NCBI GenBank assembly: GCA_021161185.1
Contig: JAGHBC010000021.1
Span: 1-36,312, forward strand
DNA: 36,312 bases
Source of the DNA: Fidelibacterota bacterium
Lineage (GTDB): Bacteria; Fidelibacterota; UBA2242
Reading direction: 5' to 3'
Shown: positions 4,011 to 24,971 of the stretch, piece after piece
Layout of the letters: each line of letters begins with the position of its first letter
How positions within the stretch are numbered: position 1 is the stretch's first letter
Notes under the pieces: model-generated
The model's input: only the letters and a program-made list of their open reading frames with translations
What the model was told of the DNA's origin: nothing
Database searches by the model: none
Program-made: the position numbers and the translations under genes

Positions 4011-4166
4011 CTACTGAATGTTATATTTTTTCATTTTATAGTGCAGCATACGTTGGGTGATGCCCAGTGTAGTTTTGCAAATGTTTTTTTCCGTCGTTAC
4101 CAAAGCAGTTGCCAGCTTTGATACATCAGCCCGATTCACCTTTTGAATTGCACGTTTTCTTTTGGG
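4011..4166 (-). pseudogene. C-terminal remnant of a sigma54-dependent (NtrC/NifA-type) activator: Fis-type HTH only
   Basis: Minus-strand translation between stops reads PKRKRAIQKVNRADVSKLATALVTTEKNICKTTLGITQRMLHYKMKKYNIQ*, resembling the terminal Fis HTH (..AxxLGxTxRxLxYKxKKYxI*). No AAA+ or receiver domain precedes it; the upstream part runs into the symporter gene in another frame. Confidence 0.6.
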
Positions 4167-5565
4167 TCAGCACACTGGTCAGAATAATCGCCGCAAATGC
4201 CAATAGATAGCTGACGAATCGCTCCGAAATGATACTGTTCAGCCCGGGTATATTTTTCCAGATGACGGTGCTTATCGATCCGGTTAGCATTCCGCCGATA
4301 GCAGCCTCTTTCGTCATTTTCTTCCAGTAAATCATGCACAACAGTACCGGACCAAAGCTGGCGCCCAGCCCGGACCAGGCATAGGATACCAGCGAAAACA
4401 CCAGATCAGTGGATGTGTACGCCATGACGAATGCGATTATGCCGACGACGATTGTGGACAATCTGCTGATTTTCAATAATTTTTCAGGTGACAGATCTTT
4501 CCTACCGACTTTATGGATAAGGTCTTCGGATATGGCTGATGCCGTTACCAGCAATTGCGAATCTGCTGTGGACATCATCGCCGCCATCGCGCCGGATATC
4601 AGTATCCCGGCAAACCATCCCGGCAACAGACTCGTCGCCATGAACGGCATCAAAAATTCCGGATCGGCAAACTTATCCGCTCCATAAAGGGCTACACCCA
4701 CGATGCCCATGAAAAACGCCCCGAAAAACGCCGGGATTGCCCATGAAAATGCGATTACTCTGCCCCGTTTTATTTCTCTGGAATCTTTAATAGCAATAAA
4801 CCTGGCAAGCAGATGCGGTTGTCCGGTATACCCGAATCCCCAACTCAGTCCGCCAAGCACCGCAAGCAATGCTGTTATCCCGGTTTTTCTCCCGGACAAG
4901 GAAAACATCGCCGGGGATAATTCGGTAAGATAATTGTGATCAGCCTGCGCTAATTCTATTACCCCGACAACCGGTAATATCACCAGTGTTGAAAACATGA
5001 TCATGGATTGGACGACATCTGTCCAGACAACAGCGCGGAATCCACCCAAAATCGTATAAAGCAAAATAATCCCGGCTCCGATAACCATACCCGATAATTG
5101 CGGGATGCCGAAGGTGACATTGAGTACTTTTCCCGCAGCATTGAATTGCGCCGCTACATAAAATATAAAGAAGAATGTGATGATCAGGGTAGAAATGATT
5201 CGCAGCAGTTTCGTTTCATCATTAAAAAAATTGGCGATCAAGTCCGGCAGGGTCAGAGAATCATATTTACCGGCTAATTCCCTTAACGGAACCGCAATGA
5301 ACAGCCAGGAAAAAATGATCCCGGCAAGACATCCGAAAACCGCCCAGATTTCCAGAAATCCCACCGCCAGCGCCGCGCCGGGCAGTCCGATCAGCAACCA
5401 CGCCGACTCACCGCTGGCGCGCTCCGAGAGAGCAATTGCCCAGGCGCCTAACTTCCGGTTGGCGATCAGATAGTCGGCGTGGGTTTTATTCTTACCGGTG
5501 CTTTTCAAACCGATAGACAAAACCACGATCAGATACAGAATAAGTCCGATTAAGATTGAATTCAT
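4126..5565 (-). CDS. Sodium:solute symporter (SSS family, PutP-like)
   Basis: 479 aa polytopic membrane protein; GGFRAVVWTDVVQ, GISGAMAAMMSTADSQLLVTASAISEDL-like core and LGGLSWGFGYTGQPHLLARFIA are SSS family hallmarks. Confidence 0.92.
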   Translation of the reverse strand: MNSILIGLILYLIVVLSIGLKSTGKNKTHADYLIANRKLGAWAIALSERASGESAWLLIGLPGAALAVGFLEIWAVFGCLAGIIFSWLFIAVPLRELAGKYDSLTLPDLIANFFNDETKLLRIISTLIITFFFIFYVAAQFNAAGKVLNVTFGIPQLSGMVIGAGIILLYTILGGFRAVVWTDVVQSMIMFSTLVILPVVGVIELAQADHNYLTELSPAMFSLSGRKTGITALLAVLGGLSWGFGYTGQPHLLARFIAIKDSREIKRGRVIAFSWAIPAFFGAFFMGIVGVALYGADKFADPEFLMPFMATSLLPGWFAGILISGAMAAMMSTADSQLLVTASAISEDLIHKVGRKDLSPEKLLKISRLSTIVVGIIAFVMAYTSTDLVFSLVSYAWSGLGASFGPVLLCMIYWKKMTKEAAIGGMLTGSISTVIWKNIPGLNSIISERFVSYLLAFAAIILTSVLTQKKTCNSKGESG

Positions 5566-5645: not shown

Positions 5646-5734
5646 CTCATTGAAAATGAATATAGACCCTACCATTGATCGTAAAAAAATAACTTCTCTG
5701 AATATTCCGCTTGAAATACCTGAAAAAATCAAAT

Positions 5735-5900
5735 AGATTAGGTCGTTATTTTAGATATGGGATTCATACAGGGAAGCTCGTGAAAATCGGGCACAGCCCC
5801 GCTACTGTAACCGGGTACGCTGCTACAAAAACCACGGTTCCGTTACCGGAATTGGAAGGTGTGGCATCGCGGTCGATCCGGAAGTCAGGATACCTGTCTA
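5735..5900 (+). promoter_or_regulatory. Cobalamin (adenosylcobalamin-type) riboswitch
   Basis: Canonical core: GGGAAgcTcGTGaAAATCgGGCaCAGCCCCGCtACTGTaACcgGG ... GAAgtCAGGAtACCtg; located directly upstream of a TonB-dependent receptor gene. Confidence 0.93.
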
Positions 5901-5905
5901 TTCCA

Positions 5906-5942
5906 TTCTAATCTCTTTGCGCGGGCAATAAAAGGATTAGAA
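5906..5942 (+). promoter_or_regulatory. Putative riboswitch expression platform (SD-sequestering hairpin)
   Basis: 8-bp perfect inverted repeat TTCTAATC (5906-5913) / GATTAGAA (5935-5942); the 3' arm overlaps the candidate SD AAAGGA (5931-5936), just before the TTG start at 5945. Confidence 0.6.
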
Positions 5943-5944
5943 AG

Positions 5945-8056
5945 TTGATCAAAAATATTTCCTCAAATTATAAATTCCATATTTATTCCAATATAGTCTT
6001 GATACCGGGGCTATTTCTTCTGCTGTCATTGGGAAATCTGCATAGCAAACCCCTTATTTCCGGAATAGTTACCGACTCGCGGAATAATCCAATCCCCTTC
6101 GTGACAATCCATAATATTTCAACAAATTCATGGTTAACTACGGATGAGAAGGGTGAATTTATCCTATCAACAAAATTTATGGTCGGCGATACGCTGGAAA
6201 TTACCAGGATCGGATATAAAAAAACCAGCGCGGTTATTCCCGTAAACAACTCGGCGATTGTTATCAAGCTTCCTTTAGATCCCGTTGCTTTAAAATCAAT
6301 AGAAGTCAGTGGCAGAAAACCAACCGGTTTGCAACGAACCGATCACTTTGCCGAGATGACAATCTCTCCGCAAATGGGACTGCTTGAGCGTCAACAGATA
6401 TTTTCAGCGATCCCGGGGATTTATATTAAATCTTATGGCGGGGCAGCCGGTGTCAGCACTCTTAGCCTCGATGGGGCTCCGTCATCGCATACAAGCATCA
6501 CATTTGGCGGATTTGACATAACAAATGCTCAAAATGGTCTGTTGGACATTTCTCAACTTCCAATGCCGCTTATGAATAAAATTAGTTATTCGCCCCTTTT
6601 AAACACCAATAATCCCGAATCCGGTAGTTCTGAAGGAAGTATTGAGATTCATCCCGATTTGTCGAAAACCGGTTTTACGATTAGCGCCGGTTCATTTGAA
6701 CATTATTCTCTGTCTGGTACTGCCGACTTCCATTACCAACGATTGAAAGGTCACATTATTATCGGAAAACGGCACGATGGTGGCAATTATCCGGCAACAA
6801 ACCCTGTTTCAAATTCAATTAATAAGAGACAAAATAATAAATTTAGTCAGCAATTTATCGCCTCAAGCTTATTAATAACCACCAGCCGGCGATCCTTTTT
6901 GCGTTTCTTGGCGCTAAGTACGCAGCAGGAGAGAGGCATTGCCGGACTGGTATGGTCGCCGACTCCTGACGCCAAACGCAACGACTTACTTCAAATGATC
7001 GGCTCGAAATTCGGCTGGACGAACAGGCTTGGATACGGCTATTCACAATTCCTGTTCCGTCAATCGAAAGATCATTATGTTAATCCGCAAAATTACATTG
7101 ATACTCGTCATACCTTACAAACGTACCAACTTCTGATCAAACAATTTGGACAGTTGAGCGATAATCTTGATTTATTGGTTTACTTGGAATCGAAATATGA
7201 TTATATAAATAGTTCTTCCACAGATATACATGATAAAATCAGTTATAAGGCGGTTGTGTCGTTAACCTACCGGCTATTTGATCATTTGTCAATCCTTCCG
7301 GGTTATATGTATAATCATTCTCCCGATAACTATTCAAAATCCGACTATGACCTCAGGTGCCAGCTTCATTTGATGGATAATAAAACTAATTTTTATATAA
7401 ACGTCGGGAATTTTTATCGTTTTCCTAACTTTAATGATCTTTACTGGCAGCCCGGAGGAAATCCAAATTTAAAACCGGAAAGCACCCAAAAGATTGCTAT
7501 TGGTACAGACATAACGCCTTTGAAAAATATAACTTTCAGCGCTTTAGCCTTTTCAAAAGAGAGTCGAAATCTTATACTATGGACGCCTTTGCAATCCTAC
7601 TGGCAGCCCAAAAACATCCGCCAGTCTGTCAGAAAAGGCTACAAATTTATAATAAACTGGAATAGCCGCCGATTCCCGGTCTCCGGCAATTTTCACTACA
7701 GTTACAACATTTCTGAAGACAGAACGCCCGGTGATTATTATAAAAAACCGCTCCGCTATGCTCCGAAACATTCTTCATCTTTTTCGTTGACCTGGCGCCC
7801 TTCGCAATTTTTATTTCACTTTCAACTTAATCATGTTGGCAAACGAATCGCTATGTACAGCTGGCCGGAAGATATCGCGCTAAAAGCATATAATGATATT
7901 TCGTTCAGTTCATCTTATACTTGGGACAAGCGGTTTGGCGCCTTGATCTTTACCGCTGCTGTCACCAATCTGATGGATACAGCCTATGCGACTTTATTGG
8001 GTTATCCGGAGCCGGGACGGTCATTCCGATTAACTATGACGTATGAATTTAATTAA
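5945..8056 (+). CDS. TonB-dependent outer-membrane receptor with N-terminal carboxypeptidase-like regulatory domain, probable cobalamin receptor (BtuB-like)
   Basis: Signal-like N terminus, ISGIVTDSRNNPIPFVTIHN..TTDEKGEF regulatory domain, plug-like region (FSAIPGIYIKSYGGAAGVSTLSLDG), beta-strand-rich barrel with ..YWQPGGNPNLKPESTQKI; downstream of a B12 riboswitch. TTG start. Confidence 0.88.
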   Translation: MIKNISSNYKFHIYSNIVLIPGLFLLLSLGNLHSKPLISGIVTDSRNNPIPFVTIHNISTNSWLTTDEKGEFILSTKFMVGDTLEITRIGYKKTSAVIPVNNSAIVIKLPLDPVALKSIEVSGRKPTGLQRTDHFAEMTISPQMGLLERQQIFSAIPGIYIKSYGGAAGVSTLSLDGAPSSHTSITFGGFDITNAQNGLLDISQLPMPLMNKISYSPLLNTNNPESGSSEGSIEIHPDLSKTGFTISAGSFEHYSLSGTADFHYQRLKGHIIIGKRHDGGNYPATNPVSNSINKRQNNKFSQQFIASSLLITTSRRSFLRFLALSTQQERGIAGLVWSPTPDAKRNDLLQMIGSKFGWTNRLGYGYSQFLFRQSKDHYVNPQNYIDTRHTLQTYQLLIKQFGQLSDNLDLLVYLESKYDYINSSSTDIHDKISYKAVVSLTYRLFDHLSILPGYMYNHSPDNYSKSDYDLRCQLHLMDNKTNFYINVGNFYRFPNFNDLYWQPGGNPNLKPESTQKIAIGTDITPLKNITFSALAFSKESRNLILWTPLQSYWQPKNIRQSVRKGYKFIINWNSRRFPVSGNFHYSYNISEDRTPGDYYKKPLRYAPKHSSSFSLTWRPSQFLFHFQLNHVGKRIAMYSWPEDIALKAYNDISFSSSYTWDKRFGALIFTAAVTNLMDTAYATLLGYPEPGRSFRLTMTYEFN

Positions 8057-8075
8057 ATAAAAGAAAGGACTTACA

Positions 8076-9125
8076 ATGAAAAAATTTGGTTTTGTTTTGC
8101 TGACATTTCTGATAGTTTCGATTTTTATAATCAGCTGCTCTGATAACCCTGTCAAAAGTGAAGGGTCGGATGGTGAATTGATAAACGCGTTTGTGCTTTG
8201 CGAAGGCAATTTTAACAGCACGAATGCATCGCTGTGGTCAATCAATTCCGATCATTCCGCCATAAACGGCCCAATTTACTGGGATCCGGCTGTTAATCCT
8301 CTCGGCGATACCGGTCAATCACTGAAGATTCATAATAACAAGCTGTATATTGTGATGAATAATTCCAACACGATAGAGATTGCCGATATTTCAGATGGAT
8401 TCCAATATGAAAATACGATCGAGGTACCCTTTGCCGGTCCCCGGGATATTGAAATTATCGATAATATCGCCTATATATCCTGTTGGTATTTAAATGGAAT
8501 TCTTCTTGTTGATTTATCAACCCAAACTTTCATCGATACTTTAATGGTCGACGGCTTACCGGAAGATTTGCTTTACTTTAACGATAAATTATACGCTTCC
8601 ATAACCATGAATTCCAACTGGACCTCGGCGGACAAAGTGATTGCGATTGACGTTTCAGGTGCAGAACCGGTGATTACGGAGACTTTTACCGTTGTTAGCG
8701 GACCGGGACAACTTTTGGGGTATCAATCCGATCTTTATGTAGCCAGTACATACTACGACGATAACTGGAATACTTATGCAGGAAACTCAAGAATTAATTT
8801 ACAAACGGGTCAGGTCTCTAAGATGGATTTTGGGATTAATTTTCAATTTGGTGCCGATTTAACCCTTTTGAATGATAAGATTTACAGAGTCTATAACGGT
8901 GGTGCCTGCCCTGTAACTGAATCCCTTACAATGGACACCCTAAATCAAATCGGTCATTACAACAATATTTATTCAATGGCGTCTAATAACGATTTATTAT
9001 ACTTCGGCTTAAGCGATTATATTGCCCCTGATAATATAACTATTGTCAATCAAAACGGAACCGAATTGGCAAATTTCCAGGTAGGGGCATGCCCGGGCGC
9101 CTTTGCCTTTTATAACGAAAATTAA
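8076..9125 (+). CDS. Beta-propeller surface lipoprotein, BtuG/YncE/DUF5074-like
   Basis: Lipobox-like IISC at the N terminus; repeated propeller blades (GQSLKIHNNKLYIVMNNSNTIEIADI, GPRDIEIIDNIAYISCWYLNGILLVDLST, LPEDLLYFNDKLYASIT); 19 bp downstream of the B12-riboswitch-controlled receptor. Confidence 0.72.
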   Translation: MKKFGFVLLTFLIVSIFIISCSDNPVKSEGSDGELINAFVLCEGNFNSTNASLWSINSDHSAINGPIYWDPAVNPLGDTGQSLKIHNNKLYIVMNNSNTIEIADISDGFQYENTIEVPFAGPRDIEIIDNIAYISCWYLNGILLVDLSTQTFIDTLMVDGLPEDLLYFNDKLYASITMNSNWTSADKVIAIDVSGAEPVITETFTVVSGPGQLLGYQSDLYVASTYYDDNWNTYAGNSRINLQTGQVSKMDFGINFQFGADLTLLNDKIYRVYNGGACPVTESLTMDTLNQIGHYNNIYSMASNNDLLYFGLSDYIAPDNITIVNQNGTELANFQVGACPGAFAFYNEN

Positions 9126-9417: not shown

Positions 9418-9586
9418 TATAATTGGAATATAATGAAAACATCCTGTCTGGGGGATAACGCTCCGTGTCAATTGACTCTTTATTGTACAGAAAACAACGG
9501 TTTTTATAAAGGTAAATATTGCTTAACTTATCTCGGTTTTTAAAAATTCCAGTTTACAAAGCCATTTGATACAAAAAAGGCAGATT

Positions 9587-10654
9587 ATGGCACGCAATAT
9601 TGTACACATCGTCGGCACGGGCACTGTCGGAGCTCCCTTAATCGGAATTCTGGCAAGCCGGCGTAAAAAATTGGGAATAGAGGAAGTCACTTTCAAACCG
9701 GAAGAGGCGGAAATCCGCAATGTGGCGCTGTTGAAAGGCATGGTTAATCTTGGCGCAAAATTGTGTATATCCGAAGAGAATACTGATGAATTTGCCAGTA
9801 TCGGTTGTAAAATTGATTATACGGCGAGCGAAGCGATTGATCGGGCGGGCGTAATTATTGATTGTTCAGCGCCCGGTTTGGCAACTGAAAACAAGGCGAA
9901 AATATATTCCCGGTATGCCGATTCGGATAAATTATTCATTGCCCAATCAAGAAATCCGGAATTTGGGAAGGATTACGCATTCTGTATTAATGATGATGCT
10001 CTGCAGCGCGATAAAGACAAATTTATCCGGATTGTCTCATGTAATGCGCATAATATCTCAAGTATTATCAAAACAATAGCTATCGAAGACAGAGTCTCAA
10101 ATCTCGAATGGGGGCGTTTCGTTTGTATCCGGCGCGCCAGCGACGTAAGTGAAGCCGAAAATTTTATTCCGTCACCCCAGATTGGTACTCACCAAAACGG
10201 AACTTACGGCACTTATCAGGCGGCTGATGCGGCATCATTATTCCATTCAATCGGTTTTGATCTGGATCTCTTTTCTTCCGCGATGAAAGTCAATTCCCAA
10301 TATCTGCACACCGTGTCTTTCGATATCAAATTAAAATCGGCGACAACCTTGCAAAAAGTGATTAACCGGTTTCAGGCAAATCCATTAATTGCCTTAACTA
10401 ATAAGCTCTTAGCGAGCCAGATTACAGCTTTCGCCAGAGATTTAGGGTACCATGGAAGAATCCTCAATCAGGCGGTAATTGTCGTCCCCGGCTTAAACCT
10501 GCGTAAACAAAACGAGTTGACTGGATTCAGTTTTTCCCTGCAAGACGGGAATTCTCTGTTAAGTTCGATTGCCGCTGCTGTCTGGTACTTTTTTCCACGA
10601 AGTTATAAAGAGAAGCTGATAGAGATGAATGACTTGATTTTCGGTGAAATTTAA
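9587..10654 (+). CDS. Divergent type II (archaeal-like) glyceraldehyde-3-phosphate dehydrogenase homologue
   Basis: Rossmann start IVHIVGTGTVGAPL; VIIDCSAPGLATENKAKIY; RIVSCNAHN with candidate catalytic Cys (codon 10040-10042); VCIRRASD; DGNSLLSSIAA near the C terminus, aligning by eye with archaeal GAPDH DG.P..IGKxN, VVSCNTTGL, RRAADP and QES.VIPENI. ATG 9587 preferred over TTG 9566. Confidence 0.62.
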   Translation: MARNIVHIVGTGTVGAPLIGILASRRKKLGIEEVTFKPEEAEIRNVALLKGMVNLGAKLCISEENTDEFASIGCKIDYTASEAIDRAGVIIDCSAPGLATENKAKIYSRYADSDKLFIAQSRNPEFGKDYAFCINDDALQRDKDKFIRIVSCNAHNISSIIKTIAIEDRVSNLEWGRFVCIRRASDVSEAENFIPSPQIGTHQNGTYGTYQAADAASLFHSIGFDLDLFSSAMKVNSQYLHTVSFDIKLKSATTLQKVINRFQANPLIALTNKLLASQITAFARDLGYHGRILNQAVIVVPGLNLRKQNELTGFSFSLQDGNSLLSSIAAAVWYFFPRSYKEKLIEMNDLIFGEI

Positions 10655-17648: not shown

Positions 17649-17821
17649 TTCAAAAAGATGATAGGCATAACGTGGCAAGAAGAAAAAGGAAGCGAAAAAA
17701 AATATAGACATATTTTTCAGGTGTGTTAAATTAATCATGGCAATTATGAAGAACTTTTTATCAGGGAGACACACAGAATACATGTTTTTGTTATACCTGA
17801 CAGGTATTGAGGGAGACATTC

Positions 17822-20800
17822 TTGTACAATTCAGTATTTGCCTTAATTATCAATATACTTTTATTGATCCCGATTTTTAATCGCGTTGGTTTTTCAAATC
17901 CCCAATTCATAACAAACCAACAGTCAGCTAATTATTCCGATATATGGCTTGACGACAACAGCTGGATATGGCGGGGCTCAGTCGCCGCACCCGATTTTAT
18001 CATTACAGACGACGGCTTTATTTCAATTCGTGCCGCAGCGCTGGAAAACGACAGCCGGTTGGCTTATCCTTCACTTCCCTGTTTCAACAAAATATTTAAT
18101 GCAATGCCTGAAGATATCAGTTATCATATTAATGGCTCAAATCGGGTTGTTCTGCCTGTTAACGGTAAACCGGAACGATTTTCCGATAGATCAAAGCCGG
18201 ACAATACAGAGTTTGAATTCAATGATCAGACCGTTCCCGATATCGGCAATATATATCCCCGGGAAACCGTTATTATCACATTTCTGGGGTATGTCAACAA
18301 CCTGCCGCTTACAAGCGTACGAATTTATCCCTATCAATTAATCGACAACGGCAAGCAGTTACGCTATTATGAAGAGATGAGTGTTTCCGTATCAATTGCT
18401 AATAATTCAAATCTCAGGATACTCCCGAAAGCTGCTAAATCGAATCTGGAAAACGCCTTAGATCTGAACAGTCAGGTTCGGCAATCATTACCGGGAAAGA
18501 CTCTTATGAAACTGGGCAGCCATTTTTTGTTTGGTCGGAAACTGATGCGCATTACCGTTGATTCCACCGGCATTTACCGCATTACCCGCTCAGCTCTCAA
18601 AGACAGCGGTGCCGCGATCAGTAATGTTGATCCGCGGTCGTTGCAGCTGTTCAATAGAGGCAATGAAGTGCCGATTTATGTTAAAGGCGAGTCCGACGGT
18701 TCATTTGACAAATCCGATTTTATCGAATTCTACGGACAGCGCAATCCCAACAGCGTTGCCGATTACTATTATGATCCTTTTACGGATAAGAATATCTACT
18801 TCCTTACCTGGGGCGAGCAAGACGGTCTGCGTTACGCTGAGGAATCGGCTAAAACGACGATTAGCAGTAATAATGCAATTGTTCCTACGGATTATGAATA
18901 CACTGCCCATTTTGAAGAGAACAGGTATTTCGACAGACTTGGTAGAGTTGATACCGATCTCCCTACGCACACGCGTGATCACTGGTTCTTTGACAGTGGT
19001 ATCAACGGCGGAACAACCAGGAGTTATACATTCCCATTGATTTATCCGAATATGAATACCATTGAGCGGTTCAATATTGAAGTCGGCATGCACGGCTTGA
19101 CCTATCAAGCTGGTAAGCATACAGTTTCCGTTTATATTAATGATTACTATACTGCCACCGACAGCTGGAGCGATCAGGTTCCGCATATCATCCGGAACGA
19201 TGTCGGGCAGGTACTTCAGAACCGCTATTTGAAGCATGGAGAAAACAAAATCCAGTTGTCGGTTGCCGGTGACGATCCTACGAATAAATATGACAAAGTT
19301 CTTTTTGATTATCTGAACATTCGCTATAAACGGCTATATCGAGCACATAAGGATCGGATCGATTTTGCCCGCCCGGAAAATAAGCCGACCGGCATCTATC
19401 ATTTCAAAATCGGCGGTTTTGAAGATCCGGATATCTCAGTCTATAAAATCGGGAAAAGCAAACTGATGGACTTCAGCGTTGAGTACAGTACGCTGACGGA
19501 TAACTACTCGGTCCTGATTGAGGATTACATCCACGATGACAATACGCTCTATATTGCCGCTTCTCGAACCGGCATTATGCAGCCGCGCAGTATTCAACCC
19601 GACACAATTTTTGATATCAGCGCCGAAGGCAAATCAATTGATCTTTTGATAATATCGGATCAGCAATTTAAGTATAATCTCGCGAAATTGATTTCCTTTT
19701 ACCAGAGTATCGGCATAAATGCTCATGTTGTCGGAATCAGAGATATTTACAACGAATTCAACGACGGAATCGTTAGCCCTTACGCCATTCGTGACTATCT
19801 GGCTTACATTCATGAAAGTTGGACACACAAACCACAAGCGGTCCTTCTGATTGGGGACTCCAAAATCCGGGAGAAAGAGTCTGTTCCTGCTTTTTTTTAC
19901 CAGTCTTATAAATATGGCGCCTGTCCCAGCGATCATTGGTATGTGGTTCTCGATGAAAAATCCGGGATACCGGAGTATGGTATCGGACGCTGGCCGGTAT
20001 CGGATCGGGAAGAACTGGAGCTGGTTATTGACAAACGCATTAATTATACAAATGAAACCCCGGTCGGTCCCTGGCACAATGAGCTGCTTTATATCGCCGG
20101 TTACGAGGACGCATTCAAGAACCAGACTGAAAATATGATCAACCGGCAGATACCTAAGGAATTCAGCATCAACCGAATCTTCATCAATCCATCATCTGTA
20201 AAAACGCCCTTTTTCGGCGGGTCTGACACTCTGATATATCTCTGGAACAAAGGCCTGATACTGATCAATTTCATGGGACATGGCGGTGGAGCGGTATGGT
20301 CTGACCGCTCCCTTTTTAACACCTCACACATTGAGTATCTCGATAATTATAATAAACTGCCCTTTATCACCAGTCTGACGTGTTTTACCGCCGATTTCAC
20401 AAATGTAACCGGACTCGGAGAGCACCTTCTGATAGCCGAAAACGGCGGGGCGATAGGTCTCTGGGGAGCGACCAGTGTCGGCTGGATAAAAAACGACTAC
20501 CTGATGGCTAAACCCTTCTATGACGTCATTTTCAATCCGGGAATGACTGTTGGAGAGGCAATCCGGTATGCGAAAATCAAGTATCTGGCGGATCATTACT
20601 TCGATTATCTGAAATTTTCAATGGTCAATTCTTTTATGCTTATCGGCGATCCGACCATCGAGATTCCCTTTCCCGGAAAACAGTCAAATCTGACGATCAG
20701 CGAAAGTAATCCACAACCCGGTCAAACTATCGAACTTTCCGGCTTGACGCCGTTTACATCCGGTGAGATTTATACCCAGTTGTACGATTCTGCTACCTGC

Positions 20801-22693
20801 CGGGTATACCCGGAACCGCAAATCGGGCAAATCGAAAACGGTATGGTTCGGCAATCGATCGAACTGCCCTTAAACATAAATCCGGGCAATACGTTTATTA
20901 ATTACTACTTCCACAATGCTGAAGCGATAGACGACGGTCACGGAGTCACATTATTGAACATCCGGGGATTGAATTTCTACAATTTCAATACTCAGCCGGA
21001 ACTGCCGGAAAAAAACCAGGGTTTCATCATTTCAGTGCGGACAGAATTAGCGAACATCGATTCTATTATATGTGAGCTGGATACGGTCAATGCGTATGAG
21101 TACCTCGATGAAAACGGAATTGAGTATGTCAGCAGCTTTAATAATCCGGCGTCAATCACTAAACAAAAAATGGTTCAGGATATCGCAGAACCCAACCGCT
21201 GGCATTTGCAAAGTCCTCTGAAAATCGGCGGCGCCGGAAAATTGATCGGTGTCAGATTTGTTGCCTATGATAATTCCCAGAATCAAACCGTCAGTAACGC
21301 ATTTTCCGTCAAGATAAAACAAAATCCCGATCTCGCGGCAATAGGCATTTCACAGGGGGGAACAACATTCCCGGAATTATTGGTCGAGGTAAATTATAAC
21401 GGCGACGATACCCTGCAAACAGACATGATAGCATATAAAGTAAACGACAACGCCGAATCGATTTTCAATACCACCCAAATTCGACTGTTACCTAACCGCA
21501 AATCCACGCACCCAATTCCCGGAATATTAGGTACAGGCTGGCAACAATTTAAAATTGTTATCGATCCGTTAAATAAAATCAATGAATTGAATGAAGCGAA
21601 TAATACGTTAACCGATTCCCTCTATATTAACACATTCCCGGTGCTGCCGACAATCGGCACAAGCCTGAATGGTATAAATACCGACACATTGAAATTTGAC
21701 CGGTATTCAATTCTGATTGAACCAAACAGCCTGATGGATTCATCCGTATTGATTATCAACCGGAAATTCATATCACAGAACTCAAATCAGCCGCAATTTT
21801 TAATTCAGAACAGTATCCGCGGCGGGCAGCTCGAAAGTATTGATATTTCGCTGCCCAATGTTTCCGACACTCTTCTCAAGCCGTTGCTGGTTGAGATATT
21901 TTCTTCTGATACAACGGATCACGACGTATTCATTGCGCACCGGGATCCCTATCTGAGAATATGGATAAAACAAGCCACTCAGCACCGGCGTAGCAGTTAT
22001 GTGACCGAGTCATCCCGCCCCGGTCAATTTACGCTTATTAAATGCCTGGACACCGAACCGCCGGCGCTTGAGCTAAGCCTCGACGGACGACAGTTTTTCC
22101 AGAATTCTTTCGTCTCCAGGAAACCGAACATTTCCATTATCGCCGAAGATCAGAATGGAGTTTCATTCGACAGGACAGGACTGCGGGTTTTTCTGGATGG
22201 AAACGCCGTCAGTTTTTCTGATCTGAATATTCCGGATACTTTGACAAATAGCAATTACGTCTCTGCCCAATTCCGCCCGGAACTTGAATACGGCGATCAT
22301 GATATTGAAGTCACTATAAAAGATGCAGCCGGCAATCGCACTGCCGATCAGATCGTTTTTACCGTTAGCGATGAACTGAAACTGATCGATTACGGGAACT
22401 ATCCGAATCCTTTCAAAGACCGAACAACTTTCATATATGAGTTAACCCAGCGGGTTGAAAAATTCAAAATAAATATTTATGCGCCATCCGGGCGTTTAAT
22501 AAAAGTCCTGGAGGAAGCGACTATTTTCAGCGCCGGTTTGGATATGAATGAAGGCGGGTACCACGAAATTATGTGGGATGGTCTTGATAAAGACGGAAAT
22601 TTCATTGCCAACGGTGTATATTTTTATAAAATGATCGCAAAAAAACAAAATAAAAAGGCAACATCTATTGGTAAGATCGCAAAGGCCCGATGA
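17822..22693 (+). CDS. Gingipain-family (C25) cysteine protease with T9SS/FlgD-like C-terminal domain; PorU-type sortase candidate
   Basis: Catalytic-site motifs FMGHGGGAVWSDR (His codon 20279-20281) and ITSLTCFTADF (Cys codon 20381-20383), LLIAENGGAIGLWGATSVGW, and C-terminal YPNPFKDRTTFIYELTQ..GGYHEIMWDGLDKDGNFIANGVYFYKM. TTG at 17822 has SD GAGGGAG and is preferred over 17807. Confidence 0.85.
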   Translation: MYNSVFALIINILLLIPIFNRVGFSNPQFITNQQSANYSDIWLDDNSWIWRGSVAAPDFIITDDGFISIRAAALENDSRLAYPSLPCFNKIFNAMPEDISYHINGSNRVVLPVNGKPERFSDRSKPDNTEFEFNDQTVPDIGNIYPRETVIITFLGYVNNLPLTSVRIYPYQLIDNGKQLRYYEEMSVSVSIANNSNLRILPKAAKSNLENALDLNSQVRQSLPGKTLMKLGSHFLFGRKLMRITVDSTGIYRITRSALKDSGAAISNVDPRSLQLFNRGNEVPIYVKGESDGSFDKSDFIEFYGQRNPNSVADYYYDPFTDKNIYFLTWGEQDGLRYAEESAKTTISSNNAIVPTDYEYTAHFEENRYFDRLGRVDTDLPTHTRDHWFFDSGINGGTTRSYTFPLIYPNMNTIERFNIEVGMHGLTYQAGKHTVSVYINDYYTATDSWSDQVPHIIRNDVGQVLQNRYLKHGENKIQLSVAGDDPTNKYDKVLFDYLNIRYKRLYRAHKDRIDFARPENKPTGIYHFKIGGFEDPDISVYKIGKSKLMDFSVEYSTLTDNYSVLIEDYIHDDNTLYIAASRTGIMQPRSIQPDTIFDISAEGKSIDLLIISDQQFKYNLAKLISFYQSIGINAHVVGIRDIYNEFNDGIVSPYAIRDYLAYIHESWTHKPQAVLLIGDSKIREKESVPAFFYQSYKYGACPSDHWYVVLDEKSGIPEYGIGRWPVSDREELELVIDKRINYTNETPVGPWHNELLYIAGYEDAFKNQTENMINRQIPKEFSINRIFINPSSVKTPFFGGSDTLIYLWNKGLILINFMGHGGGAVWSDRSLFNTSHIEYLDNYNKLPFITSLTCFTADFTNVTGLGEHLLIAENGGAIGLWGATSVGWIKNDYLMAKPFYDVIFNPGMTVGEAIRYAKIKYLADHYFDYLKFSMVNSFMLIGDPTIEIPFPGKQSNLTISESNPQPGQTIELSGLTPFTSGEIYTQLYDSATCRVYPEPQIGQIENGMVRQSIELPLNINPGNTFINYYFHNAEAIDDGHGVTLLNIRGLNFYNFNTQPELPEKNQGFIISVRTELANIDSIICELDTVNAYEYLDENGIEYVSSFNNPASITKQKMVQDIAEPNRWHLQSPLKIGGAGKLIGVRFVAYDNSQNQTVSNAFSVKIKQNPDLAAIGISQGGTTFPELLVEVNYNGDDTLQTDMIAYKVNDNAESIFNTTQIRLLPNRKSTHPIPGILGTGWQQFKIVIDPLNKINELNEANNTLTDSLYINTFPVLPTIGTSLNGINTDTLKFDRYSILIEPNSLMDSSVLIINRKFISQNSNQPQFLIQNSIRGGQLESIDISLPNVSDTLLKPLLVEIFSSDTTDHDVFIAHRDPYLRIWIKQATQHRRSSYVTESSRPGQFTLIKCLDTEPPALELSLDGRQFFQNSFVSRKPNISIIAEDQNGVSFDRTGLRVFLDGNAVSFSDLNIPDTLTNSNYVSAQFRPELEYGDHDIEVTIKDAAGNRTADQIVFTVSDELKLIDYGNYPNPFKDRTTFIYELTQRVEKFKINIYAPSGRLIKVLEEATIFSAGLDMNEGGYHEIMWDGLDKDGNFIANGVYFYKMIAKKQNKKATSIGKIAKAR

Positions 22694-23700
22694 AAGTCAG
22701 ATTCCGAATTTTTATGCTAATGTTTGTTTGCGGGATAATTGCCCAGGGCGGGGAATATGCCGACTCCTTTCTTGAAACGGGAGTCAGCGCCCGCGCTCTG
22801 GCGATGGCTAATGCCACAGGTGCGCTTGACCGTAGCGCAACTTCTTTTTCGAGTAATCCCGCTGGTCTGGCATTCGTTCGGCAAACTCAAGTTGGATTAA
22901 TGTACACTTCCCAATTTGGGCTGGCAAATCATAATTATATCGGACTTGCCCTGCCCCTTTCAGAAAAATCTTCGGGAGCGGTCAGTTGGGTCCGATTCGG
23001 TGTGGATGATATTCCAATTCGACCGGATATTCTCAGAGAAGTCACTGATCCGGCGGCCCGGCGGGATTCCATTATTGCCCTGCAGAATTATCCATTTAAA
23101 ACATTTAGCGATCTTGAGGACGCTTTTTTTATCAGCTATGCTCGTCATATTTCAAAATCTGTTAGTCTCGGTTGGCGTTATTCACGCTTCACCATTGAAA
23201 TTCCCTGGGGCATTAATTTCAAAATAATCTATAAGAAACTTTATAATCTTGAAGCTTACGGTATTGGTATCGATATTGGCGGACGTTTATGTGTCAGCGG
23301 TGAAGAACTGTTTGAAATAAAGAAACTTGGGAAACTCAACGTCGGACTGGCATTGAAAGATGCGACCGGAACAGTAATCTATTGGAATACCAAACGGCAG
23401 GATGAGATTAGATTTTACCCGGTTTTTTCTTTTGGACTTGAACAGACTATCGAAAAATATCACATGCATTTAAATGTGGGAATAGAAAAGGATTATCGTC
23501 ATCAGGATAAAATGAGGTACGGTCTGGAGTGTATTGTTAAGGACAAAATAAGTTTCCGGGCAGGTATAAATAAAACTGGTATAACAACCGGATTAGGTTT
23601 AATTTATAAGGTGATGAATCGAATTATTAATACTGATTATACGTTTTTTAACCATGATCTTGGAGCAACCCACAGAATAGGAGTCGGAATCGAACTTTGA
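22690..23700 (+). CDS. PorV/PorQ-like (UPF0164-type) outer-membrane beta-barrel protein
   Basis: GGEYADSFLETGVSARALAMANATGALDRSATSFSSNPAGLAFV is the typical PorV/PorQ start; the rest is beta-rich; overlaps the stop codon of the upstream C25 protease gene. Confidence 0.78.
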   Translation: MKVRFRIFMLMFVCGIIAQGGEYADSFLETGVSARALAMANATGALDRSATSFSSNPAGLAFVRQTQVGLMYTSQFGLANHNYIGLALPLSEKSSGAVSWVRFGVDDIPIRPDILREVTDPAARRDSIIALQNYPFKTFSDLEDAFFISYARHISKSVSLGWRYSRFTIEIPWGINFKIIYKKLYNLEAYGIGIDIGGRLCVSGEELFEIKKLGKLNVGLALKDATGTVIYWNTKRQDEIRFYPVFSFGLEQTIEKYHMHLNVGIEKDYRHQDKMRYGLECIVKDKISFRAGINKTGITTGLGLIYKVMNRIINTDYTFFNHDLGATHRIGVGIEL

Positions 23701-24458
23701 AGATAATCTCACTATTAAAAATATTTTTAATGGTTTCAATGATAATAATAGTTCCCAATTGTGGTGAAAGTATCGAGGATCCCGACGCTCCCGCGCCGCC
23801 GGTATGGGTTTGCAAATCCGCGCCTACGGACACAATCGCCACCGGTATTCGCCCGTATAACGAAGGCAACGGAATTATACTGGAATGGCATCCAAACCTC
23901 GAAGAGGACATTTCAGGCTACAAGCTTTATAAGGCTGAGCAAGATATTGAAAACAAATTCACATTGGTGGCAGATATAAATGCATTTTCAGTGAGTGGTG
24001 CAGATACGTTTTTTGTCGATGATTCGGTAAAATTCGGGATCGATTATTACTATTACCTGAGAGCATATGATCAGGCTGGCAATAAAAGCAATCCTTCGGA
24101 TACAATACAATATGCAGTAATCAGCAAGGTTGAACCACGGAAACCAATCGGAACAATAACCGCTCAACCGATGATATTTGAATGGAATGACTTTTCAAAC
24201 CTGAATCCTGAATATGTTATCCGGCTTGAAAACTTAGAAACACATAATGTTATTTGGATTTCTCGCTTTACAACACCAAATTATGGAGATTTTTGCCAGT
24301 CGATAAATTTTAATTTTGATGGTTTAGCTGAACCCGGCGCTCTGTCATCCGGACAGTGGTATCGCTGGTGTATAAAATCTATAGTTTATGTTGATCCGCA
24401 TACCAATATTGATATCGAAGGTTCAGTCTCTAATTGGGAGTATTTCTCAATTGAATAG
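23697..24458 (+). CDS. Putative lipoprotein with fibronectin type III-like domain
   Basis: Signal-like IFLMVSMIIIVPNCGES (Cys after hydrophobic stretch); NGIILEWHPNLEEDISGYKLYKAE..FFVDDSVKFGIDYYYYLRAYDQAGNKSNPSDT is an FnIII pattern. TTG start overlaps the upstream TGA. Confidence 0.7.
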   Translation: MKIISLLKIFLMVSMIIIVPNCGESIEDPDAPAPPVWVCKSAPTDTIATGIRPYNEGNGIILEWHPNLEEDISGYKLYKAEQDIENKFTLVADINAFSVSGADTFFVDDSVKFGIDYYYYLRAYDQAGNKSNPSDTIQYAVISKVEPRKPIGTITAQPMIFEWNDFSNLNPEYVIRLENLETHNVIWISRFTTPNYGDFCQSINFNFDGLAEPGALSSGQWYRWCIKSIVYVDPHTNIDIEGSVSNWEYFSIE

Positions 24459-24470
24459 CAAGGGGAAAAT

Positions 24471-24971
24471 GTGAAAAAAGGCTTAATTGTCATATTCTTG
24501 ATTGTTTTTATAACGACCGGTTTTAGTCAGGAATCTTTGCGAACGCAAAGCGATTTAACGAATCGTCCAAGCGCTTCACGGTATATCCTCTCCGCGACAA
24601 ATGATGCGTTGTTAATGACCGTCAGAGTCTGGGGGGAGGTTAAGAAACCTGGCCTGTATGATGTCCCGATTGGAACCGATCTGGTTGAGTTGATCTCTTC
24701 AGCCGGAGGGCCGACGAACATGGCAAAATTAACTAAAATTAAGGTCATTCACTCGTCTCATAAGGATGAAGAAAATTATGTATCTGTTATTAATATCAAA
24801 GAATTTCTTGATACCGGTAATGCCGAACTAATCCCGGAAATCAGACCAAACGATACGGTTGTCGTACCCATTAAACCAACTCAATACATCCTAACCTCTC
24901 TATCGTGGACTCAACAATTATTAAGTCTGTTTTCTGCTTATGCGTTAATACAATACTACACCAGTAGATAA
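24471..24971 (+). CDS. SLBB (soluble-ligand-binding beta-grasp) domain protein
   Basis: N-terminal signal, then VRVWGEVKKPGLYDVPIGTDLVELISSAGGPTNMAKLTKIKVI..IRPNDTVVVP. GTG start. Confidence 0.75.
   Translation: MKKGLIVIFLIVFITTGFSQESLRTQSDLTNRPSASRYILSATNDALLMTVRVWGEVKKPGLYDVPIGTDLVELISSAGGPTNMAKLTKIKVIHSSHKDEENYVSVINIKEFLDTGNAELIPEIRPNDTVVVPIKPTQYILTSLSWTQQLLSLFSAYALIQYYTSR

Follow-up and report, generated by a model that had tools for sequence, protein, structure and literature searches.

The occurrence of a cobalamin (B12) riboswitch ahead of the genes for a TonB-dependent receptor and a β-propeller lipoprotein raises the question of whether the BtuB-BtuG pair, reported until now only from Bacteroidetes such as gut Bacteroides, also serves another phylum. 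We examined such a locus in a window of 36,312 nucleotides (the whole stretch of DNA analyzed here). The source genome is a Candidatus Neomarinimicrobiota MAG (91% completeness, 160 contigs), and its relatives at 71-90% identity are also named as Candidatus Neomarinimicrobiota MAGs, in agreement with a preliminary description, which had placed the DNA outside Bacteroides. Neomarinimicrobiota are an uncultured, largely marine phylum. The riboswitch, the gene order, and the TTG start codon of the receptor gene were all found again in three related contigs (L003, L004, and L005). We consider it very likely that the locus is a B12-repressed outer-membrane cobamide-capture operon made up of the riboswitch, btuB, and btuG, with the following features.

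5723 to 5915, forward strand: cobalamin (B12) riboswitch aptamer RF00174 (cmscan, 100.9 bits, full-length model); the same element is present in L003, L004, and L005
5798 to 5802, forward strand: CCCGC aptamer loop, the proposed kissing-loop partner (sequence)
5907 to 5941, forward strand: expression-platform hairpin, with some of the ribosome-binding site taken up in its 3′ arm (RNA fold, −11.1 kcal/mol, z −2.5)
5921 to 5925, forward strand: hairpin-loop sequence GCGGG, the complement of CCCGC at 5798 to 5802 (sequence, phylum comparison)
5930 to 5936, forward strand: Shine-Dalgarno sequence AAAAGGA within the hairpin, 8 nt ahead of the TTG start (sequence, fold)
5945 to 8056, forward strand: BtuB-like TonB-dependent receptor, 703 aa, TTG start, N-terminal CarbopepD_reg domain (Pfam, NCBIfam, and PDB searches)
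8076 to 9125, forward strand: BtuG-like β-propeller lipoprotein, 349 aa, lipidated Cys21 predicted (Pfam, PDB sequence and fold searches)

The riboswitch and its expression platform

The canonical riboswitch core claimed in the preliminary description was borne out by the Rfam comparison it had proposed, in which the match covered model positions 1 to 189 of 189 (E 2.7e-24; gathering score, 31.5). Downstream of the aptamer, the hairpin takes the GGA of the AAAAGGA Shine-Dalgarno sequence into its 3′ arm, and a similar fold was found in L003 to L005 (z −2.3 to −3.4). The two complementary loops recur across the phylum: CCCGC is present in the 43 compared aptamers that have enough downstream sequence, and 39 of these 43 riboswitches carry CGGG or CGAGGG at the place of the hairpin loop (shuffles expect 3.2), with a ribosome-site-like motif on the 3′ side of the hairpin in 34.

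A kissing loop that blocks translation is a known cobalamin riboswitch layout, and the window riboswitch resembles it in its aptamer CCCGC loop, its downstream GCGGG hairpin loop, and the hairpin over the ribosome site; nothing essential differs, and the window locus and its three relatives use a TTG start. Read in this way, the sequence suggests ligand-dependent control, such that at high cytoplasmic B12 the aptamer would bind the vitamin and its CCCGC loop would kiss the GCGGG loop, stabilizing the hairpin and hiding the ribosome site, and btuB, with btuG on the same message, would then remain untranslated. At low B12, both BtuB and BtuG would be made.

The receptor

A TonB-dependent receptor had been described as starting right after the riboswitch, and the open reading frame there indeed encodes one, with a TonB_dep_Rec barrel (71.9 bits; cut-off, 27) and a CarbopepD_reg_2 domain (35.4 bits; cut-off, 32.2). 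The Plug score (17.1 bits) is below the Pfam cut-off of 23.9, but the region nonetheless aligns with the plug of solved BtuBs. All 10 PDB matches of the receptor are B12 receptors, with Bacteroides BtuB1-3 in the lead (E 1e-18 to 1e-20). The receptor missed the cut-off of the TIGR01779 BtuB equivalog (74 versus 599.7 bits); judged by this score, it is not the equivalog modeled there, and the score is as low as a divergent member would give. Such a BtuB would carry the corrinoid into the periplasm with TonB energy.

The propeller lipoprotein is a divergent homologue of BtuG

The lipobox-bearing β-propeller protein of the preliminary description is encoded 19 bp beyond the receptor stop codon, as had been stated. 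Its N-terminus reads MKKFGFVLLTFLIVSIFIISC, followed by SDNP, in which the segment FIISC forms a lipobox with Cys21, and its AlphaFold model is a propeller (pLDDT 93.8, pTM 0.92). The best Pfam match was DUF5074, with 24.8 bits, just below the cut-off of 27.2. In a phmmer search, the best PDB sequence match was 8blw_B (E 2.3e-11) and the first 12 matches were BtuG-type chains, and a BtuG profile built from 37 sequences of the phylum matched PDB BtuG chains with E values of 1e-28 to 1e-33 (best, 7e-33). A fold search of 350,542 PDB chains placed BtuG1, BtuG2, and BtuG3 at ranks 1 to 16 (TM 0.76-0.84) and the B12 binder BtuK1 at ranks 17 to 19, so that BtuG and BtuK together span TM 0.73-0.84; below BtuK1, the next entry had a TM of 0.56, and the other listed propellers were all below 0.70. 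The profile and fold tests that had been proposed thus favor BtuG, and they support the earlier claim of a BtuB-BtuG capture pair in another lineage. In the term “sequence-divergent BtuG analogue”, the word analogue understates the case, as sequence and fold both indicate a homologue. Of 293 aligned residues, 71 (~24%) are identical to the BtuG3 chain.

For the binding pocket, we aligned the lipoprotein with the BtuG3 chain 8p97_B together with 3DSM, a reference whose numbering fits 10 of the 11 residues that the BtuG2 paper names. The lipoprotein and the BtuG3 chain have in common EGN, GD..QS, N.S, PR, E180, and VG..PG. Three of the five aromatic residues of the BtuG2 pocket (W194, Y239, W272, Y316, and Y335; PMC10404256) are kept, W194, Y239, and Y335 corresponding to W182, Y227, and Y315 of the lipoprotein, while Y316 is replaced by I292 and W272 is without an aligned counterpart. 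By analogy with the solved proteins, the lipoprotein may bind corrinoid very tightly and form a lid complex with BtuB: it would be lipid-tethered at the cell surface, hold the corrinoid in its central pocket, and, as the lid on BtuB, hand it over. The sequence that begins with Cys21, CSDNPVKSE, has no clear lipoprotein export motif, the signal judged being of the Bacteroidetes type, which may not be that of this phylum.

BtuG is linked to B12 riboswitches across the phylum

Among 245 genomes of the phylum, 133 had BtuG profile matches, of which 119 were strong (123 places), and at least 188 had a cobalamin riboswitch. A riboswitch lies 1.8-3.0 kb upstream on the same strand, a distance of one btuB length, at no fewer than 56 of the 123 strong BtuG places, and at least 26 further places have one within 0.9 kb, with btuG directly behind it; several of the remaining places end at contig ends. 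Because this same-strand linkage is so recurrent, pairing of riboswitch and btuG by chance is excluded, and the linkage repeats across families with only 30-40% BtuG identity. When 50 riboswitches were read in context, the next gene was btuB in 28 cases and btuG in 13; it was unresolved in 7, and the other two were an ABC-ATPase gene in a FecCD locus and a 709-aa open reading frame.

Two further readings of the receptor and propeller have to be set against these data. The propeller might be a generic YncE/DUF5074 surface protein outside B12 capture, as its best Pfam match would allow, but we rejected this on the TM gap that separates BtuG and BtuK from other propellers in the fold search, and with btuG directly behind the riboswitch at so many places we give the idea hardly any weight. 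It might also be that receptor and propeller import some other ligand, a different metallophore or cofactor, and are merely placed behind a B12 riboswitch. Both TonB receptors and YncE-type propellers form large families, and the pocket does not retain Y316 and W272; however, the solved close relatives of both proteins are all B12 proteins and the riboswitch linkage survives the divergence of BtuG between families, so that we think a different ligand highly improbable.

BtuG has been stated to be exclusive to Bacteroidetes on the basis of human-gut genomes (PMC6143338), and in a literature search we found no paper that puts it in Neomarinimicrobiota. Its spread across this phylum suggests that surface B12 capture with lids of the BtuG type did not arise as a specialty of the gut, and such lids may shape competition for scarce B12 elsewhere.

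Two variant arrangements were seen along the way. In family f24 (L104, L105, L107, and L114, from genomes G166, G165, G163, and G161), btuG occurs without btuB in the stretch read and adjoins genes for an ArsP_1-HMA permease (PF03773) and a small heat-shock-like protein. At positions 22941-24740 of G209:C2, a second, weak BtuG-like propeller is encoded just ahead of a Peripla_BP_2 gene, a possible BtuF-like pair.

Lipobox and type-IX-like tail

The lipobox is kept in the BtuG homologues of L003 and L004 and lost in that of L005. Of 44 BtuGs with context, 28 carry a lipobox but no tail; in another 13, a plain signal peptide is combined with a PNPFN-type tail at the C-terminus. L004 alone carries both lipobox and tail, and two BtuGs carry neither. 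The Fisher p of this exclusion is 2.7e-8, in a statistic that ignores relatedness. The conserved LCEGN cysteine of the BtuGs is not the lipobox. Close relatives swap the lipobox for the type-IX-like tail (L004 5542-6903, L005 3778-4776, and L077-L096); L005 has neither, and no degraded tail was found downstream of its btuG. The L004 tail resembles Por_Secre_tail and FlgD_ig, with scores slightly under the cut-offs.

A type IX secretion route probably exists here, because SprA is found in 223 of the 245 genomes and Por_Secre_tail matches number 36 in the window genome. We infer that lipid and type-IX-like tail would be two interchangeable ways of holding the BtuG lid at the surface, in which case relatives whose BtuG has exchanged one anchor for the other offer a natural experiment in the tethering of surface lids. 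The window itself also encodes, at 17807-22693, a Peptidase_C25 protein of 1628 aa bearing a FlgD_ig tail, a candidate PorU-like type IX secretion sortase, and, overlapping that gene by 4 bases, a 336-aa protein (22690-23700) in the place usual for PorV.

The inner-membrane step

The preliminary description had seen no obvious periplasmic or inner-membrane B12 transporter in the window, and this extends to the genome: searches that were each positive in 13 of 14 control genomes found neither a FecCD (BtuC-like) permease nor a Peripla_BP_2 (BtuF-like) protein in the 91% complete window genome. BtuCDF could be hidden in an assembly gap, which would make the inner-membrane step ordinary and which a MAG of 160 contigs might permit, but full-length FecCD occurs in only ~14 of the 245 genomes and in 8 of the 119 with strong BtuG matches, and a BtuF-like protein is missing from 16 of 21 genomes searched (the window's own and relatives); such a gap is therefore a very unlikely explanation. 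As far as the window genome is assembled, the inner-membrane step would not be BtuCDF. A divergently transcribed symporter gene at 4126-5565 was rejected as a B12 importer, as its score is of the sodium/proline type and it does not recur as a neighbor. BtuCDF is missing from many Gram-negative users of B12 that do possess BtuB (PMC6072759), and the locus touches this gap, for which an ECF neighbor in related genomes is a concrete candidate.

A conserved block of three genes (L151 1001-4116 and L083-L134) encodes a YhaM-like protein, an ECF S component, and a predicted outer-membrane protein of ~550-600 aa for which no convincing Pfam, NCBIfam, or PDB match was found; in many families, the block converges on btuB/btuG. 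The S component, a small membrane protein, was recognized by PF12822 (38.3 bits versus a cut-off of 30.7 in L086). Such S components occur in 147 of the 245 genomes; of 143 places, at least 50 have a riboswitch or btuG no more than 8 kb away, the S gene always being encoded on the opposite strand. In our data, 42 strong-BtuG genomes have neither FecCD nor an ECF S component. At E values up to 10, the profile had a single PDB sequence match, CbrT 6FNP (E 2.2e-6), which belongs to ECF-CbrT of Lactobacillus delbrueckii (PMC5997447). The structural model matched the ECF S fold, with BioY, PanT, RibU, and FolT listed rather than CbrT. Compared with ECF-CbrT, the S component of sister genomes, of which 6FNP is the only PDB sequence match, has a diderm host, a remote similarity, and a putative substrate. 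In the window's family, the ECF block is separate from btuBG; the sister genome G216 has it, but a search of the window MAG did not find the S component, and a DNA search for the sister's block returned nothing beyond short, scattered matches immediately 5′ of its genes. The window MAG does hold an EcfT-like gene.

We think it rather likely that the S component carries a non-B12 substrate and that its position beside btuB/btuG in relatives is inherited synteny. In addition to the strand arrangement and the fold search, it forms a stable unit with the genes for the YhaM-like and outer-membrane proteins even far from btuBG, and in the loci read it is not itself behind a riboswitch. On the other side stand the match to CbrT, the proximity to riboswitch or btuG, and the fact that the S component is common where BtuC is missing. 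Among alternatives to BtuCDF in the phylum, an ECF transporter whose S component resembles CbrT is the likeliest. We regard the CbrT-like S component as a candidate replacement for BtuCDF and its B12 role as a lead, not a result, because in the window's family it stands apart from btuBG, searches of the window MAG did not find it, and its fold does not favor CbrT. A hybrid route, in which a riboswitch-controlled BtuB-BtuG pair, its BtuG held by a lipid or by the type IX secretion system, works with a CbrT-like ECF transporter instead of BtuCDF, is a tentative and somewhat doubtful proposal; if true, it would be a form of B12 import not described before.

Comparison with known systems

The locus shares with BtuB2-BtuG2 of Bacteroides thetaiotaomicron (PMC6143338; PMC10404256) a B12 riboswitch, adjacent btuB and btuG genes, a lipobox propeller of the same fold, and part of the central-pocket aromatics. 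In contrast to that system, it belongs to a different phylum, its BtuG identity is ~24% (measured on BtuG3), its lipoprotein is without an evident LES motif, its locus contains no btuCDF and none was found in the genome, and its relatives replace the lipid anchor with a type-IX-like tail. In single-sequence searches of the PDB, the lipoprotein matched best to 8BLW, which is BtuB1-BtuG1/BtuGH of B. thetaiotaomicron, and the receptor matched best to this entry and 8BMX; the window lipoprotein is without the fused BtuH domain. The data support the window locus as a BtuB-BtuG operon in a new phylum; given the alternative anchors of its relatives and the missing BtuCDF, it varies the known system and does not simply copy it.

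Use of B12 and neighboring genes

The window genome encodes MetH, which the imported vitamin would serve at least. The genome's second cobalamin riboswitch (L006 2013-4187, G000:C34; 114.8 bits) lies upstream of the gene for the B12-independent methionine synthase MetE and probably shuts it off when B12 is present; sparing MetE in this way is the usual regulatory logic. The neighbors of the operon in the window are mostly housekeeping genes, encoding topoisomerase I, glycyl-tRNA synthetase, TilS, hypoxanthine phosphoribosyltransferase, and FtsH, as well as a class-I release factor, a class-II tRNA synthetase, a ClpC-like ATPase, and Hsp70. At 9566-10654, the window also encodes a divergent relative of archaeal type II glyceraldehyde-3-phosphate dehydrogenase, with a score well under the curated cut-off.
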